DNA of 64,000 nucleotides from Flavobacteriales bacterium. GTDB taxonomy: Bacteria > Bacteroidota > Bacteroidia > Flavobacteriales > ECT2AJA-044. The stretch lies in assembly GCA_021296215.1 (NCBI GenBank), contig JAGWBA010000002.1, positions 1 to 64,000 on the forward strand. Reading direction: 5' to 3'. The notes beneath the pieces are model-generated. The model was not told where the DNA came from. It searched no databases and saw only the letters and a program-made list of their open reading frames with translations. Of this stretch, positions 42,578 through 64,000 are shown one piece after another (within the stretch, counting starts at the first letter, position 1; each line of letters begins with the position of its first letter). The position numbers were made by a program, and so were the translations under genes.

Positions 42578-43567
42578 ATGAAGTTGAAAGCGGGTGTTTT
42601 GGGAGCCGGACATTTGGGAAAGATTCACATAAAGTTGCTCATCCAAAGTGAGGAGTACGAATTGGTAGGATTTTACGACCCGAACCCGGAGAACAGCGCT
42701 GTGGTAAGCGAGGAGTATGGAATTCAATCTTACGACTCTATTGAAGTGCTCATCGACGCCGTAGACGTGGTGGACATTGTAACCCCTACGCTTTCGCACT
42801 ACGATTGCGCCGTTCAGGCCTTGCGAAAGTCTAAGCACGTTTTTATCGAAAAGCCCATTACCAACACGGTTGCCGAAGCCGAAGAGCTTATCCGCCTCGC
42901 AAAAGAAGCGAGTGTTAAGGCGCAGGTTGGACACGTTGAGCGGTTTAACCCCGCCTTTACCACGGCTCGACCGTTCATCAATCAGCCCATGTTCATCGAA
43001 ACCCACCGTTTGGCGCAGTTCAATCCACGAGGAACAGATGTTCCCGTGGTGCTGGACCTTATGATCCACGATCTCGATATCGTTCTGAGCATCGTCAACA
43101 GCACCGTTAAGCGCGTTTCGGCGAGCGGCGTCAGCGTGGTTAGCGAGAGTCCGGATATCGCCAATGCACGAGTCGAGTTCGATAACGGCTGCGTAGCTAA
43201 CCTCACTAGCAGTCGCATATCGATGAAGAATATGCGGAAAACCCGAATTTTTCAGCGCGACGCCTACATTTCGGTTGATTTCCTGACCAAGGAGACGGAG
43301 ATCGTTCGCATGAAAAACGTCAAAGGCGAGCTCGAGGATTACGCCATGGTGCTCGACCTAGAAAACGGCAATCAAAAGCAGATCTATTTCGAAAAGCCCG
43401 AAGTACCGAGCAACAACGCCATTCTCGACGAACTAAATTCACTTGCCCACTCGATTCGGAACAACACCGAAACCGCTGTGACGTTAGAAGATGGACACGC
43501 GGCCCTGAAACTGGCAACGGGCATCATATCTAAATTCAACGACCAACTCAAGCCGATTAGCGAGTGA
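42578..43567 (+). CDS. Gfo/Idh/MocA-family oxidoreductase
   Basis: 329 residues from ATG 42578 (MKLKAGVLGAGHLGK), with the NAD(P) fingerprint GAGHLG near residue 8 and the conserved EKPITNTVAEAEELI segment; VGHVERFNPAF and DLMIHDLDIVLSIV mark the substrate domain. It reduces or oxidises a sugar-derived substrate. It leads a probable operon with a lipoprotein and a sugar transferase, suggesting surface polysaccharide work. TACTTTTG at 42553-42560 matches the -7 promoter element, 17 bp before the start. Confidence 0.88.
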   Translation: MKLKAGVLGAGHLGKIHIKLLIQSEEYELVGFYDPNPENSAVVSEEYGIQSYDSIEVLIDAVDVVDIVTPTLSHYDCAVQALRKSKHVFIEKPITNTVAEAEELIRLAKEASVKAQVGHVERFNPAFTTARPFINQPMFIETHRLAQFNPRGTDVPVVLDLMIHDLDIVLSIVNSTVKRVSASGVSVVSESPDIANARVEFDNGCVANLTSSRISMKNMRKTRIFQRDAYISVDFLTKETEIVRMKNVKGELEDYAMVLDLENGNQKQIYFEKPEVPSNNAILDELNSLAHSIRNNTETAVTLEDGHAALKLATGIISKFNDQLKPISE

Positions 43568-44430
43568 AACGCTTTTTTATCTTCTTAGTGGCGGCCTCAA
43601 CGGCCGGATGTGGACTTTCCGAACCCCCGGAGCAGATCCCGGGCTACGTTCAAATCGAGGACATTTCAGTAACGACGAATTCCGGAGAAGGAAGTAACAG
43701 CGACAATATCAGCGACTGTTGGGTGTACGTAGAGGATCCCGAGCTCGGTTTCGTGCTCCAAGGAGTCTATGAAATGCCCGCGAGCTTTCCGATCATCGGC
43801 GAGGGAAATACCCCAGTTCGTATTCAGGGAGGAGTTCGTATTTCGGGGCTGAGCTCGGCCCGACAATTATACCCATTCTACAGACCGTATTTGGATACGG
43901 TGAAATTAACACCAAACGGTAACGCCAAGATCGAACCCGTCGTGGACTATTACCCCGGAGTGGTCTTCGATTGGATGGAAGATGCCGAAGATCCAGGCCT
44001 GAGCATGGAAGCTACAGAAAGCTCCGACACTACCCTTCTGCGTATTACCGGATCTGAGGCCTTTGAAGGAAACGCCTCCTTGGCCTATTACGTAGACACG
44101 GCAAACCCGTTGTTCTTTGGGGTAACGGTAGACGAATTCGTTTTACCCAAAGGCGGACGGCCTGTTTTCCTCGAAGTGGATTACAAGTGCAACTACGAAT
44201 GGATCATAGGACTTCTAGGCAATACCCCTAACGGCGTTACGGACTTTATTGCGTTGACGATCAGACCGAAGGAAGAGTGGAACAAACTCTACATTCAGTT
44301 GACCAACCAAGTCAGCGCAGCAGGTAATTTGGATGCTACCTCGTTCAAGATTTACTTTGCCTCGCTTCTGAATCCCGATCTTCAGGACGAGGGATATGTA
44401 TATATCGACAACATCAAGCTGGTTTATTGA
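43564..44430 (+). CDS. Hypothetical lipoprotein
   Basis: 288 residues. The GTG start at 43564 overlaps the stop of the upstream oxidoreductase (GTGA). Signal MKRFFIFLVAASTAGCGLS has lipobox Cys at residue 16. The body is beta-rich (GYVQIEDISVTT, IQGGVRISGLSSARQLYPFYRPY, GYVYIDNIKLVY); nothing identifies a known family, although similar proteins occur next to glycan genes in Bacteroidota. Its stop overlaps the next gene (TGATG). Confidence 0.65.
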   Translation: MKRFFIFLVAASTAGCGLSEPPEQIPGYVQIEDISVTTNSGEGSNSDNISDCWVYVEDPELGFVLQGVYEMPASFPIIGEGNTPVRIQGGVRISGLSSARQLYPFYRPYLDTVKLTPNGNAKIEPVVDYYPGVVFDWMEDAEDPGLSMEATESSDTTLLRITGSEAFEGNASLAYYVDTANPLFFGVTVDEFVLPKGGRPVFLEVDYKCNYEWIIGLLGNTPNGVTDFIALTIRPKEEWNKLYIQLTNQVSAAGNLDATSFKIYFASLLNPDLQDEGYVYIDNIKLVY

Positions 44431-45845
44431 TGAATAGACGTCTACACGTCCTTAAATACCTTGCATTCGACATCGTAGCAGCCGGTGCTGCGTGGGCGTT
44501 GTTTTACGCATACCGAAAAACGGTCATTGAATCTGCCAAGTTTGGAATCAAAGTACCCCTCGACTACGATACGAAGTTCTATTGGAGTCTCGTGGCCATC
44601 GTGATCTTCTGGATCACGATGTACTGGTCATCGGGCTATTATCGCGATATCTACAGAAAGTCTCGCGTTCAGGAATTGGGTCAAACCATTTTCCATTCGC
44701 TACTGAGTACGGTCATCATTTTCTTCGTCTTAATTCTGGATGACACCATCGTCAGCTACAAAAGTTACTACAGCTCCTTTTTCACCCTTCTGGGACTACA
44801 CTTTGGCATTACCTACATACCGAGGTTTTTCTTGACCACACATACGGCCAGGCGTGTTCACAGGCGCGAGATCGGTTTCCCTACTCTATTGATCGGAAGT
44901 AACGAAAATGCCGTTGAACTCTATCAGGAGTTAGAAAGTGCCCGTAAATCGAGCGGAAACAAATTCGTGGGGTTCGTAAGTGTAAACAACAATATTGAGT
45001 TCTTGGCCTCCAATGAACTTAACCACCTTGGAACTTATCAAGAGCTTCCGGAGGTTATTGATAAATACGAGATAGAAGAAGTGATCATAGCCCTCGAATC
45101 GACCGAACACAGCCGAATCGAGGAAATTCTCAACCTCCTGGAGCCGGTGCCTGTAGTGATCAAGATCATTCCCGACACCTACGACATTCTCTCCGGAAAA
45201 GTACGCATGCAGTCGATCTTTGGAACTCCGTTGATCGAGATCCAACACGACCTCATGCCCCTGTGGCAATTCACCGTTAAACGAGGTCTCGATATTTTAC
45301 TTTCGATCGTTTTTATGTTCTTGCTGTCTCCCGTGTTTCTGTTTACCGCAGTAATGACAGCGTTAAGCTCTCCCGGTCCGATTTTGTTTCGGCAAGAACG
45401 CGTTGGACTAAATCGCAAGCCATTCAAGATCATCAAGTTTCGTTCGATGTACCAAGATGCTGAGAAGATGGGGCCTCAATTATCGAGCGAGGACGATCCG
45501 AGAATTACAAAATGGGGACGGGTCATGCGAAAGTTTCGCCTCGATGAGCTCCCCCAACTGTGGAATGTTTTGATCGGTGACATGTCGTTCGTTGGTCCAC
45601 GAGCAGAACGAAAATTCTACATCGATCAAATTGAACAAAAAGCCCCGCATTACCGTCACTTGCATAGAGTTAAACCGGGCATTACGAGCTGGGGAGTGGT
45701 GAAATACGGGTATGCTGAAAACGTGGATGAAATGGTTCAGCGGATGAAGTACGACATCATTTACATCGAGAACATGTCGCTGTTCATCGACATTAAAATA
45801 TTGATCTACACTATATTAATAGTCCTTCAGGGACGTGGAAAATAA
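44430..45845 (+). CDS. Undecaprenyl-phosphate sugar transferase (polyprenyl glycosylphosphotransferase)
   Basis: 471 residues. ATG 44430 is chosen over the TTG three bases earlier because it overlaps the upstream stop. Four to five N-terminal membrane helices (FDIVAAGAAWALFYAY, LVAIVIFWITMYWS, LLSTVIIFFVLIL), a central Rossmann-like region (LLIGSNENAVELYQELE), a re-entrant helix (VKRGLDILLSIVFMFLLSP) and the catalytic domain (PGPILFRQERVG, FRLDELPQLWNVLIGDMSFVGPR) define a WcaJ/WbaP-like phosphoglycosyltransferase that starts polysaccharide assembly. Confidence 0.92.
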   Translation: MNRRLHVLKYLAFDIVAAGAAWALFYAYRKTVIESAKFGIKVPLDYDTKFYWSLVAIVIFWITMYWSSGYYRDIYRKSRVQELGQTIFHSLLSTVIIFFVLILDDTIVSYKSYYSSFFTLLGLHFGITYIPRFFLTTHTARRVHRREIGFPTLLIGSNENAVELYQELESARKSSGNKFVGFVSVNNNIEFLASNELNHLGTYQELPEVIDKYEIEEVIIALESTEHSRIEEILNLLEPVPVVIKIIPDTYDILSGKVRMQSIFGTPLIEIQHDLMPLWQFTVKRGLDILLSIVFMFLLSPVFLFTAVMTALSSPGPILFRQERVGLNRKPFKIIKFRSMYQDAEKMGPQLSSEDDPRITKWGRVMRKFRLDELPQLWNVLIGDMSFVGPRAERKFYIDQIEQKAPHYRHLHRVKPGITSWGVVKYGYAENVDEMVQRMKYDIIYIENMSLFIDIKILIYTILIVLQGRGK

Positions 45846-60609: not shown

Positions 60610-61295
60610 GCGCCGAGTTGGAAGTTCTTTACGAGGACAATCATTTGATCGCCGTGAACAAACGTGCGGGCGATCTTGTGCAGGGCGATGAAACCGGCGA
60701 TGAGCCGTTGCCCGAGCGGATCAAAGCCTACCTGAAGGTCAAGTACGACAAACCCGGAAATGTATTTCTCGGTGTAGTGCATCGCCTCGACAGACCCACT
60801 TCGGGAATCGTGGTCTTTGCCAGAACCAGCAAGGCTTTAGGCCGTATGAACGATTTGTTTCGTCATCGCGATACGCTCAAGGTGTATTGGGCACTGTGCG
60901 AGCGGGCACCAGCCGAACCCTTTGGGAAACTGACCGATTTCCTGGCCAAGAATGCCAAGCAAAACAAGAGCTACGTGGTGGAGGCGAATCATCCCAAGGG
61001 AAAAAAAGCAGAACTCAGCTACCGGCTACTTGGGTCATTGGAACGGTATCACCTCATTGAAATAGAGCTGCACACTGGGCGTCACCATCAAATTCGGGCT
61101 CAGTTGGCCGCCATTGGCTGCATCATAAGGGGCGACTTGAAATACGGTGCAAAACGATCGAATCCGGATGGGAGCATCTCGCTTCATGCCAGAAAGCTCG
61201 AGTTCGTGCATCCTGTGCAGAAAGAGCCCATTAGCATCACAGTGCTCTGTCCGAGTGAAAAGATCTGGCAGGAAGCCCAAAGTTTGGCGCTATGA
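60606..61295 (+). CDS. RluA-family pseudouridine synthase
   Basis: 229 residues. [19 protein letters not shown] carries the catalytic Asp in HRLDRPTSG near residue 62, and [16 protein letters not shown] completes the active site. It converts uridine in rRNA or tRNA to pseudouridine; which site cannot be told. The TTG start at 60606 overlaps the panB stop (TTGA). Its stop overlaps the rhomboid start (ATGA). No S4 domain is present. Confidence 0.92.
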
Positions 61296-61891
61296 ACATG
61301 GATTTCATCGCCGTAGTACTTGTGCTGTTCAACGTGCTCATCAGCATGAAGGGGTTCAACGATCGCATATTCTTCGAGAAGTACTTATTTCAAACGGGGA
61401 GCATCATCAACGGCAAAGAGTACATTCGAATGATTTCGAGCGGATTCCTCCACGCCGGTTGGGGGCATCTGGCATTTAACATGATTGCGCTTTGGTCGTT
61501 CGGCGGACTGGTCGAAGACTTTATAGGAACCATTCCGTTCGTGATACTCTACTTCATATCACTTGTAGTCGGCAACCTAACGTCGTTGTACTTGCATCGC
61601 GAGGAGCTTTTTTATCGCGCCGTAGGCGCATCAGGAGCCGTTAGCGGCGTCGTATTCGCCAGTATATTGCTGTATCCGCAAGGCAGTGTGATTATCTTTT
61701 TGATCCCCTTCCCTATTCCGTCGTGGCTATTTGGGATCATCTACTTAATAATCTCGATCTACGGAATGCGGGAGCAGCGCGACAATATCGGTCATGAAGC
61801 GCATTTTGGCGGAGCCATTGCCGGCCTCATCATGACGCTTTGGTTCCGCCCTTCAAGCGGAGCTGAATTCATTCAATATTTCATCGGTTGA
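61292..61891 (+). CDS. Rhomboid-family intramembrane serine protease
   Basis: 199 residues with six membrane segments. HAGWGHLAFNMIALWSFGG starts the core; the nucleophile Ser115 lies in RAVGASGAVSGVVF, and the catalytic His in GHEAHFGGAIAG. It cuts transmembrane segments of unknown substrates. Start ATG 61292 overlaps the upstream stop. Ends one base before the convergent cytochrome gene. Confidence 0.92.
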   Translation: MNMDFIAVVLVLFNVLISMKGFNDRIFFEKYLFQTGSIINGKEYIRMISSGFLHAGWGHLAFNMIALWSFGGLVEDFIGTIPFVILYFISLVVGNLTSLYLHREELFYRAVGASGAVSGVVFASILLYPQGSVIIFLIPFPIPSWLFGIIYLIISIYGMREQRDNIGHEAHFGGAIAGLIMTLWFRPSSGAEFIQYFIG

Positions 61892-63835
61892 TCAGCGTCG
61901 AATAACGCGCTCAACGGAGATTTGCCCCTGTTGATCCTCAATGTACAAGAGGTAGAGTCCGCCCGTAAACGGCAACTCCACGTAATCGCTCCAATGCAGC
62001 TGACGTTTCTCCCAAACCAAGCGCCCATCGGCGGTATAGAGTGAAACACGCCGGAAATCACGACGATCTCCCTTCAGGTAAAGCCTTCCGTCACTATTCG
62101 GATTTGGATAAACCGTATAGCCTGCGGCTCGATGTAGCCCTTCGCCGGTACTTACGTCCGGCCCCCTAAACGCTTGTGCTACGAGGCTCGGAGATTTATC
62201 CGCAGCGTTGTACATGTTCTGAAACGTATCGATGGCAGCGGAACTGTAGGTGAACATATCGGCCGGATACCTCGGAGGAACCGGCTGATACCACACGTGC
62301 ACACTCACATTCAATTCGCCCGTGTAACCGTTGATGGAAATGTGGTATTCGATCACATCGGCACCCGAACCCTCTACTCCATTCTCCCAATTGAAGTTCG
62401 GGTCGTTAAAGGCATCACCGGATATCTTGGTGGTGTCGTATGCCGCGTGTAACGTTGAGAAGCCCGCGGGCGGAATCCTATTGTCCTTCAAGGCGGTCTT
62501 GGCACGTTCGAGTACCGTGGTAACATCGTCGTTCACATCACCCATGACCTGCTCGTATATCTGCACTTGATCGGGCGAATTAATGATGCGATGGTGAGGC
62601 TCATACTCAGGATCAATACCAACCAATTCGTAAGTGGCATCCAAGGTTCCAGAATGAAAAAGTGTATCGAGTTGCTCGTTCTGGAGCAAGAACTCAACGA
62701 ACGCACGGCGCGATGGATACCCACTCGGGAATTTATGACCGGCCAAATTCTGCAGTTTCAATTCGTAAAAGACCGTATCGGCAGTTCTATCGGCCTCTTC
62801 TAGCTCAATCTCCAAAGAATGCTCACGTAACATGCGCTCCGTACGTGCAATGGTACTATCGAATTGTTCGGGCGTGGCAGTTAAACCAAGACTACTGATA
62901 TTATCTTTTAACAACCTTAACATGAACGCATTACCCCCTACAAGATGGTGAAGTCCAAAAGGCCTTCGAGGCGATAGGAAAATGTAATTCGCAGCGATCA
63001 CCACATTCTGATCGATCCGTGGAATATGGCAAGTTTGGCACTCAACCTCATTGACATTGTACGAAGAGTTCAACCATTCGTGGTAAGTCGCTTGCTCCAC
63101 GAATTGGTTTCCTGTGTAATTACCCGAAAGGTCTACCGTACTCGTGATCAAGGTATGACAGCTGGCACATACTTCAGAGTCGTTGATGTGCTCGCTCCAA
63201 ACCACGTTAAACCCGATGAAGGAGCTCATAGGATCAGCAAAAGGATTCTTATAGGGGCCATACACCGTTTTGTCCGTGGTAAAGTCTATTTGACCGCTGA
63301 AATCGAGCCCGAGGGAATCTGGCGGAAGAACCTGGTGACAAGTGCCGCAATTTACTCCGTCGAGCCCCAGAGTATCGGTTATCAAATCGCTTATGCCATA
63401 ATGTGGCTGGTTATTGAATGTGGCCGTATATCGGCCCATGGGCGCGTGACACGAGGTACACACCGATTCGAGCCCTTGCGCATGAGCCGGATTTACCAAT
63501 CCTTCATGACTTACTTTGGCTCTCCATAAAGGATTCTTGGCCGAATTGGCCATCATGGTAGAGCGCCAGTCGTCGGCAATGTTGATGTCGTTTCCGAGTG
63601 TGTCGACCAAGGCAAATCCAGTTGGGTCGTGCCCATGGCATCCTGCACAAACACCGCTAGTGGCAAAGTAGTTGTTGGTATCAATGGGTAAATCGGTCGT
63701 TTGCGCCATATATAGAGCAAGCTCCTGCGGCGTGTGGAAAGACTTCCGTTTTTCCGGCTCCACGCTTCGAGCCACGAAGAGGGTCAGAACAATGAGTCCC
63801 AAACCCATGAATATTTTCAATCGACTTCCGATCAT
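61892..63835 (-). CDS. T9SS-sorted five-heme cytochrome c
   Basis: 647 residues from ATG 63835 (MIGSRLKIFMGLGLIVLTLFVA signal-like segment); a longer in-frame start lies at 63874. Five heme motifs: CAGCH, CTSCH, CGTCH, CASCH and CQTCH within the first 320 residues. A beta-rich region follows, then a class A T9SS C-terminal domain (GYTVYPNPNSDGRLYLKGDR to GQISVERVIRR, about residues 570-647). The protein should therefore leave the periplasm for the surface or medium, an uncommon destination for a multiheme cytochrome; electron transfer there is inference. Confidence 0.88.
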   Translation of the reverse strand: MIGSRLKIFMGLGLIVLTLFVARSVEPEKRKSFHTPQELALYMAQTTDLPIDTNNYFATSGVCAGCHGHDPTGFALVDTLGNDINIADDWRSTMMANSAKNPLWRAKVSHEGLVNPAHAQGLESVCTSCHAPMGRYTATFNNQPHYGISDLITDTLGLDGVNCGTCHQVLPPDSLGLDFSGQIDFTTDKTVYGPYKNPFADPMSSFIGFNVVWSEHINDSEVCASCHTLITSTVDLSGNYTGNQFVEQATYHEWLNSSYNVNEVECQTCHIPRIDQNVVIAANYIFLSPRRPFGLHHLVGGNAFMLRLLKDNISSLGLTATPEQFDSTIARTERMLREHSLEIELEEADRTADTVFYELKLQNLAGHKFPSGYPSRRAFVEFLLQNEQLDTLFHSGTLDATYELVGIDPEYEPHHRIINSPDQVQIYEQVMGDVNDDVTTVLERAKTALKDNRIPPAGFSTLHAAYDTTKISGDAFNDPNFNWENGVEGSGADVIEYHISINGYTGELNVSVHVWYQPVPPRYPADMFTYSSAAIDTFQNMYNAADKSPSLVAQAFRGPDVSTGEGLHRAAGYTVYPNPNSDGRLYLKGDRRDFRRVSLYTADGRLVWEKRQLHWSDYVELPFTGGLYLLYIEDQQGQISVERVIRR

Positions 63836-63916: not shown

Positions 63917-64000
63917 ATGAAACAGCTTTTTACTCTCCTTTTGTTCACGGGATTATTCACTAATGCGTTGGCACAAGCCGGAGGCGAGGATTGCTCCTCA
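63917..64000 (+). CDS. Secreted protein, N-terminal fragment at window edge
   Basis: ATG 63917 opens 28 codons to the end of the window, starting with a clear signal peptide MKQLFTLLLFTGLFTNALA followed by QAGGEDCSS. It is divergent from the T9SS-sorted cytochrome. The gene continues outside the window. Confidence 0.7.
   Translation, partial: MKQLFTLLLFTGLFTNALAQAGGEDCSS

Follow-up and report, generated by a model that had tools for sequence, protein, structure and literature searches.

A pentaheme cytochrome with a type IX secretion tail in Bacteroidota, and its predicted role in electron transfer outside the membrane

At the end of the window (the whole stretch of 64,000 nucleotides that we analysed, from a Flavobacteriales bacterium) lies a gene whose product combines five heme-binding motifs with a sorting tail of the type IX secretion system (T9SS), and the locus raises the question of what such a cytochrome would do outside the cell. 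The open reading frame occupies positions 61892..63835 on the minus strand and encodes 647 amino acids, delimited by ORF calling, profile matches and an AlphaFold model. Its ATG stands at 63835, and the frame stays open back to a TTG that lies 39 bases further upstream. Approximately residues 1-24 (63764..63835, minus strand) form a putative signal peptide, recognized by eye and as a helix (H2-24) in the model. The motifs follow on the same strand: CAGCH (residues 63-67, 63635..63649), CTSCH (126-130, 63446..63460), CGTCH (163-167, 63335..63349), CASCH (223-227, 63155..63169) and CQTCH (266-270, 63026..63040). Behind them come an Ig-like β domain (approximately residues 338-560, 62156..62824, minus strand) with a conserved GHKFPSGYP loop at residues 366-374, delineated from the models and from conservation, and a T9SS type A sorting domain (approximately residues 572-647, 61895..62122, minus strand). 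All ten cysteines of the protein sit within CxxCH motifs, and no more than one motif turned up in any of 20000 composition-preserving shuffles, which rules out that the five arose by chance.

The model of the whole protein, built with 77 sequences, has a mean pLDDT of 90.0, and a separate model limited to the core reached a pLDDT of 90.4 and a pTM of 0.91. The downstream gene (61292-61891) encodes a rhomboid (PF01694), which we considered as a processing partner by way of rhombosortase-like processing; its convergent orientation and the type A character of the tail led us to reject it.

Fold, heme ligands and tail of the pentaheme protein

A fold search with the whole model matched residues 53-559 to the Thermochromatium-type cytochrome of PDB entry 5ZE8, the low-potential penta-heme cytochrome c552 of T. 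tepidum, with Z 25.5 and an rmsd of 2.8 Å over 347 of 385 residues. The core-only model gave the same entry with Z 24.5, and every other row of that list stayed below 8. Searched against PDB sequences, the family profile returned 5ZE8 at E 7.5e-6 and 9wt8, the multiheme selenoprotein MccSep, at E 1.6e-4; H367, in the Ig loop, aligns with a His of both. The heme core is thus an already known fold, and the protein is almost certainly a member of the PHC family (T. tepidum c552/ExtKL fold). As for multiheme enzymes of the NrfA or HAO type, the match lists obtained contained no profile above its cut-off and no fold that stood out.

For conservation we used 82 full sequences, namely 80 kept from 324 matching stretches in public genomes, plus the window and a genus mate. 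Each of the five CxxCH motifs is present in 82/82, so that the possibility raised in the preliminary description, that the motifs might not be conserved, does not apply. A further 32 stretches, one of them again that of the genus mate, contributed 34 ORFs of the family. Five motifs were counted in 31 of these and six in two; the ORF at L170 shows four, its contig starting within the gene. The two with six (L172:6854-9562 and L173:5661-8336) are relatives of about 900 amino acids, without a T9SS tail, from two genomes of the same order.

Conservation also points to the distal heme ligands. H296 and H367 are kept in 64/64 rows of a wider tree set, and M95 is Met in 82/82 homologues and His in 5ZE8 and in three tail-less, lipoprotein-like copies. 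H216 and H414 are nearly always kept in three large clades and are missing from the most distant members. These five residues (M95, H216, H296, H367 and H414) are our candidates, with which all five hemes would probably be six-coordinate and one of them would be a His/Met heme. Such coordination suits an electron relay better than an enzyme with an open site. H110 and H252 were dropped as ligands: they are invariant in the 82 and absent outside the main clade.

The NCBI profile TIGR04183 matches residues 575-645 with 26.2 bits (cut-off 23), so the preliminary description's own proviso, a tail that fails the T9SS profile, is answered. PF18962, a second model of the same tail domain, stays below its cut-off (16.3 vs 27 bits), and the tail would therefore be overlooked if Pfam were used alone; this is outweighed by TIGR04183 and by the fold. 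Modelled residues 571-647 resemble solved C-terminal domains of T9SS cargo at Z 8.8-10.8 (8glk, 10.8; 8gl8, 10.6; 8glj, 9.7; 8gl6, 9.4; and 8qb1). The TIGR04183 tail was found (E <= 0.001) in 70/70 scanned homologues, tailed relatives that are 46-80% identical to the window protein. SprA is encoded in the host genome, as it is in 28/28 genomes examined overall, and the host also has a ResB-type heme-attachment gene. The architecture first described, five CxxCH motifs and a C-terminal class A domain, is thus confirmed by motif count, profile and tail fold, and surface export, proposed with it, is well supported by the conserved tail and by these two genes. Judged from sequence, the protein is very probably exported.

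Distribution and genomic neighbourhood

The core was found in 27/395 genomes drawn across Bacteroidota (E <= 1e-20), and the 324 stretches from public genomes come mostly from Saprospiraceae and Flavobacteriales assemblies. In the host order the gene is rare (3/99 relatives). The preliminary description had called such a protein unusual for marine flavobacteria, and unusual it is within the order, but elsewhere in the phylum the family is common. The MAGs behind three matches (L031, L060 and L097) bear the title Chryseobacterium gleum, possibly in error; their proteins cluster with those of other Flavobacteriales or Saprospiraceae MAGs. Some genomes carry two or three copies (G236, with L163, L164 and L165; G403, with L158 and L159), and L161 has two pentaheme genes in tandem, one of them tail-less. 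Short tail-less relatives with a lipoprotein-like start, the lipobox being assigned by eye, occur at L156:11798-13147, L157:3178-4584 and L174:6839-8161, the last of which comes after a propeller-type protein.

A search for a conserved partner, suggested in the preliminary description, proved fruitful. A divergent gene begins 82 bases from the pentaheme ATG and 43 from the upstream TTG (63918..64000, plus strand, continuing past the window end; L111:7918-11070). It encodes a protein of 1050 amino acids with FG-GAP and UnbV/ASPIC domains and a T9SS tail of its own. UnbV/ASPIC relatives were detected by profile in the flanking DNA of 23/82 loci and are directly adjacent in 18/82, the window locus included; the profile count was originally 24/82, from which we removed L102 because Pfam shows no UnbV domain there. 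Pfam confirmed the domain in 9/9 partner proteins scanned. Of the 18 adjacent genes, eight are divergent and seven convergent; the other three share the strand of the pentaheme gene, two lying downstream and one upstream. In 59/82 loci no UnbV/ASPIC gene was found in the flanking DNA examined. Genomes carry from 1 to 18 UnbV genes, and random placement would give 0.11 direct neighbours over 33 genomes, or about 0.3 scaled to 82 loci. Since the 33 were chosen to include every locus with an adjacent match, they give the background rate and should not be taken as drawn at random. Several of the 82 loci are closely related. The sole UnbV gene of each of three genomes, G014, G564 and G581, adjoins the pentaheme gene.

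Sugar-dehydrogenase-like proteins (PF07995) are adjacent or a few genes off in 4/114 loci (L092, L100, L164 and L165); the one at L092 is fused to a cytochrome c and the one at L100 has a T9SS tail. A plastocyanin-like cupredoxin with a weak T9SS tail was observed at L062:3065-3709 and in nine more loci, always as the second gene downstream and on the other strand. We treated neighbours common to 8-16 loci of similar gene order, the cupredoxin among them, as lineage synteny.

In 11 of the 27 core-bearing genomes the gene stops after the core (551-589 amino acids) and has no tail. The same-strand upstream gene belongs to a single cluster in 11/11 of these loci, and its product begins with a monoheme cytochrome c domain (PF13442), behind which about 240 residues run to a conserved aromatic C-terminus (at L148, in G409, only the second part was called because a stop interrupts the frame). 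That second part is probably an outer-membrane barrel: PF13557 matches it weakly (18.2 bits, under the cut-off of 22), and its hydrophobic, strand-like alternation is modest, being reached by 1 to 18 of 300 shuffles. A profile search of the 395 genomes for this cytochrome-barrel protein found it in 14, which are the same 11 and three weaker matches without a pentaheme core (G199, G212 and G261); by that search it is absent from the other 16 core-bearing genomes. Of these 16, all but G245 were read for a tail: fourteen have a tailed copy, and G346 has a tail-less lipoprotein-like copy only. Since G346 has neither tail nor barrel gene, a choice between the two is not the whole story.

The 11 barrel-paired genomes fall into one clade of a rapidly built 64-row tree and therefore do not represent 11 independent events. 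The tail changes at least three times on the same tree if it is defined as 60 or more residues beyond the core, which is a length rule and not a profile. G358, with a tail, and G409, with the barrel, belong to the same family (f44). SprA is found in all 28 genomes examined, tail-less ones included, so a missing secretion system cannot explain the loss or choice of a tail. Given the barrel pairing of the tail-less sister clade, both forms seem to be connected with redox processes taking place there.

Possible roles of the exported cytochrome

The genome of the host contains other multiheme genes. One is an alternative-complex-III-like hexaheme gene, and another (L191:5517-7517, minus strand) encodes a seven-heme, lipoprotein-like protein of 666 amino acids whose C-terminal stretch resembles repeats. 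On contig C21 of the same genome (G000; 42606-45328, or L190:8589-11800, minus strand) at least 34 CxxCH motifs lie within 2.7 kb, distributed, in the present assembly, among several short reading frames, and a ResB-type gene is located about 3.3 kb from this array.

The explanation to which we incline, on balance, is an exported electron relay outside the membrane, in which Bacteroidota have re-addressed the PHC fold to the cell surface. Sec would export the protein, and a ResB/CcsA-type system would load the five hemes in the periplasm, before passage through the T9SS. The type A tail would then direct the folded protein out via SprA, to be anchored or released outside. At the surface, as the gene neighbourhood suggests, it could swap electrons with other exported redox proteins, perhaps the FG-GAP/UnbV-ASPIC neighbour and, in some lineages, the sugar-dehydrogenase-like proteins. 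Such a relay requires that electrons be supplied or accepted outside the membrane, and any donor or acceptor there is hypothetical. We also propose, as a more doubtful idea, that two interchangeable outer-membrane redox modules have been built on one pentaheme core, one a barrel conduit and the other a T9SS-exported collector of electrons from co-exported propeller proteins (UnbV/ASPIC and sugar-dehydrogenase-like), with UnbV/ASPIC proteins as extracellular redox partners.

Extracellular electron transfer, to which the preliminary description had turned, is a conjecture here: the fold is that of c552/ExtKL and not of MtrC/OmcA, and no conduit joining the protein to the inner membrane was identified. 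Mineral respiration by the protein is possible. On that reading it would, as a terminal reductase, pass electrons to minerals, electrodes or other cells after receiving them via another outer-membrane conduit, and the surface tail, together with the C21 array and the hexaheme gene of the same genome, would fit such a role. A survey also finds secreted multihemes in Bacteroidota, in Saprospiraceae above all, in the part of its text available (PMC11495043). We nevertheless think a terminal reductase unlikely, as no outer-membrane conduit was identified beside the pentaheme gene, the cytochrome-barrel is absent from the host genome, and the recurrent neighbours are secreted propeller-type proteins rather than porins.

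An extracellular redox enzyme, as proposed for ExtKL and MccSep, with Y373 marking an active site beside a heme, seems to us rather unlikely. Y373 aligns with the selenocysteine (X) of 9wt8 and is kept in 81/82 homologues, but it is Ile in 7/8 tailed copies of an Ignavibacteria-like group (named by eye) and Ala in 5ZE8. The ExtKL equivalog NF040886 is matched weakly (E <= 0.001) by 57/70 scanned relatives, whereas the window protein scores 15.3 bits on it, far from the curated cut-off of 250. Selenite reduction has been suggested for ExtKL, according to the accessible portion of one report (PMC5877670); against such an activity here, the five conserved candidates for distal ligands leave no obvious open heme. 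It is very improbable, finally, that the tail is a relic or mere anchor and that the protein, like T. tepidum c552, has a periplasmic function. The closest solved relative, 5ZE8, has no such tail, and the tail-less clade occurs in SprA-bearing genomes, but the tail is retained by every scanned relative down to 46% identity, it has the fold of T9SS cargo, and the neighbouring UnbV/ASPIC protein is T9SS-tagged too.

Significance and relation to known systems

The exported pentaheme form found in many Bacteroidota, often with the gene of a second exported protein next to it, seems to have received little attention in the literature. A search of mainly open-access papers yielded no description of a T9SS-tagged multiheme cytochrome, nor of such a form together with a conserved partner that is exported too, or of its swap with a cytochrome-barrel; the available part of the survey cited above contains no match for 'T9SS' or 'type IX'. 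Should the protein leave the cell with its hemes in place, T9SS would bring multiheme electron carriers to the surface in a phylum that is seldom regarded as electroactive, and the large UnbV/ASPIC family of exported proteins would gain a first testable redox link. Through the swap of tail and barrel, genomes can be used to ask how electrons reach the outer membrane in this phylum.

Like the decahemes MtrC and OmcA of the outer membrane, the window protein mixes heme and β domains, and PF22113 matches it just above threshold (30.8 bits, cut-off 30). OmcA came up as no more than a weak fold match (E 0.018). The decaheme family model TIGR03507 is not among the listed matches of the window protein at E <= 1 and is matched weakly by 17/70 scanned relatives. 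The window protein differs from these decahemes in having five hemes, not ten, and a T9SS tail; MtrC and OmcA reach the surface by a lipoprotein route. Cyc2-type proteins, which are cytochrome-porin fusions, resemble the neighbour in the tail-less clade, with its N-terminal monoheme domain and probable outer-membrane barrel. That neighbour is distinguished from Cyc2 by a barrel region of about 240 residues and by always adjoining a pentaheme gene.

The closest likeness is to T. tepidum c552, reportedly the subject of a paper by Chen et al. in 2019. Both proteins have five hemes, an Ig-like domain and the conserved His of the Ig loop, but they are 21% identical over the aligned part, 5ZE8 lacks the tail and has His where the window protein has M95, and its source is a purple sulfur bacterium. 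Nanowire-forming cytochromes (AvECN type) were taken as those in which hemes are chained across subunits and a neighbour donates a ligand. ExtKL of Geobacter and the cytochromes of cable bacteria have been described as one pentaheme family with an Ig-like domain, for which structural homology to T. tepidum c552 is reported and, via c552, kinship to the archaeal cytochrome nanowire is suggested, in the portion of the paper available (PMC11976967). With this PHC family (NF040886; MccSep, 9wt8) the window protein shares, as far as that source goes, the five hemes, the Ig-like domain and the GH-x-x-P-x-G loop, and it differs from ExtKL and MccSep by a Tyr at the selenocysteine site of MccSep, by the T9SS tail and by different gene neighbours.
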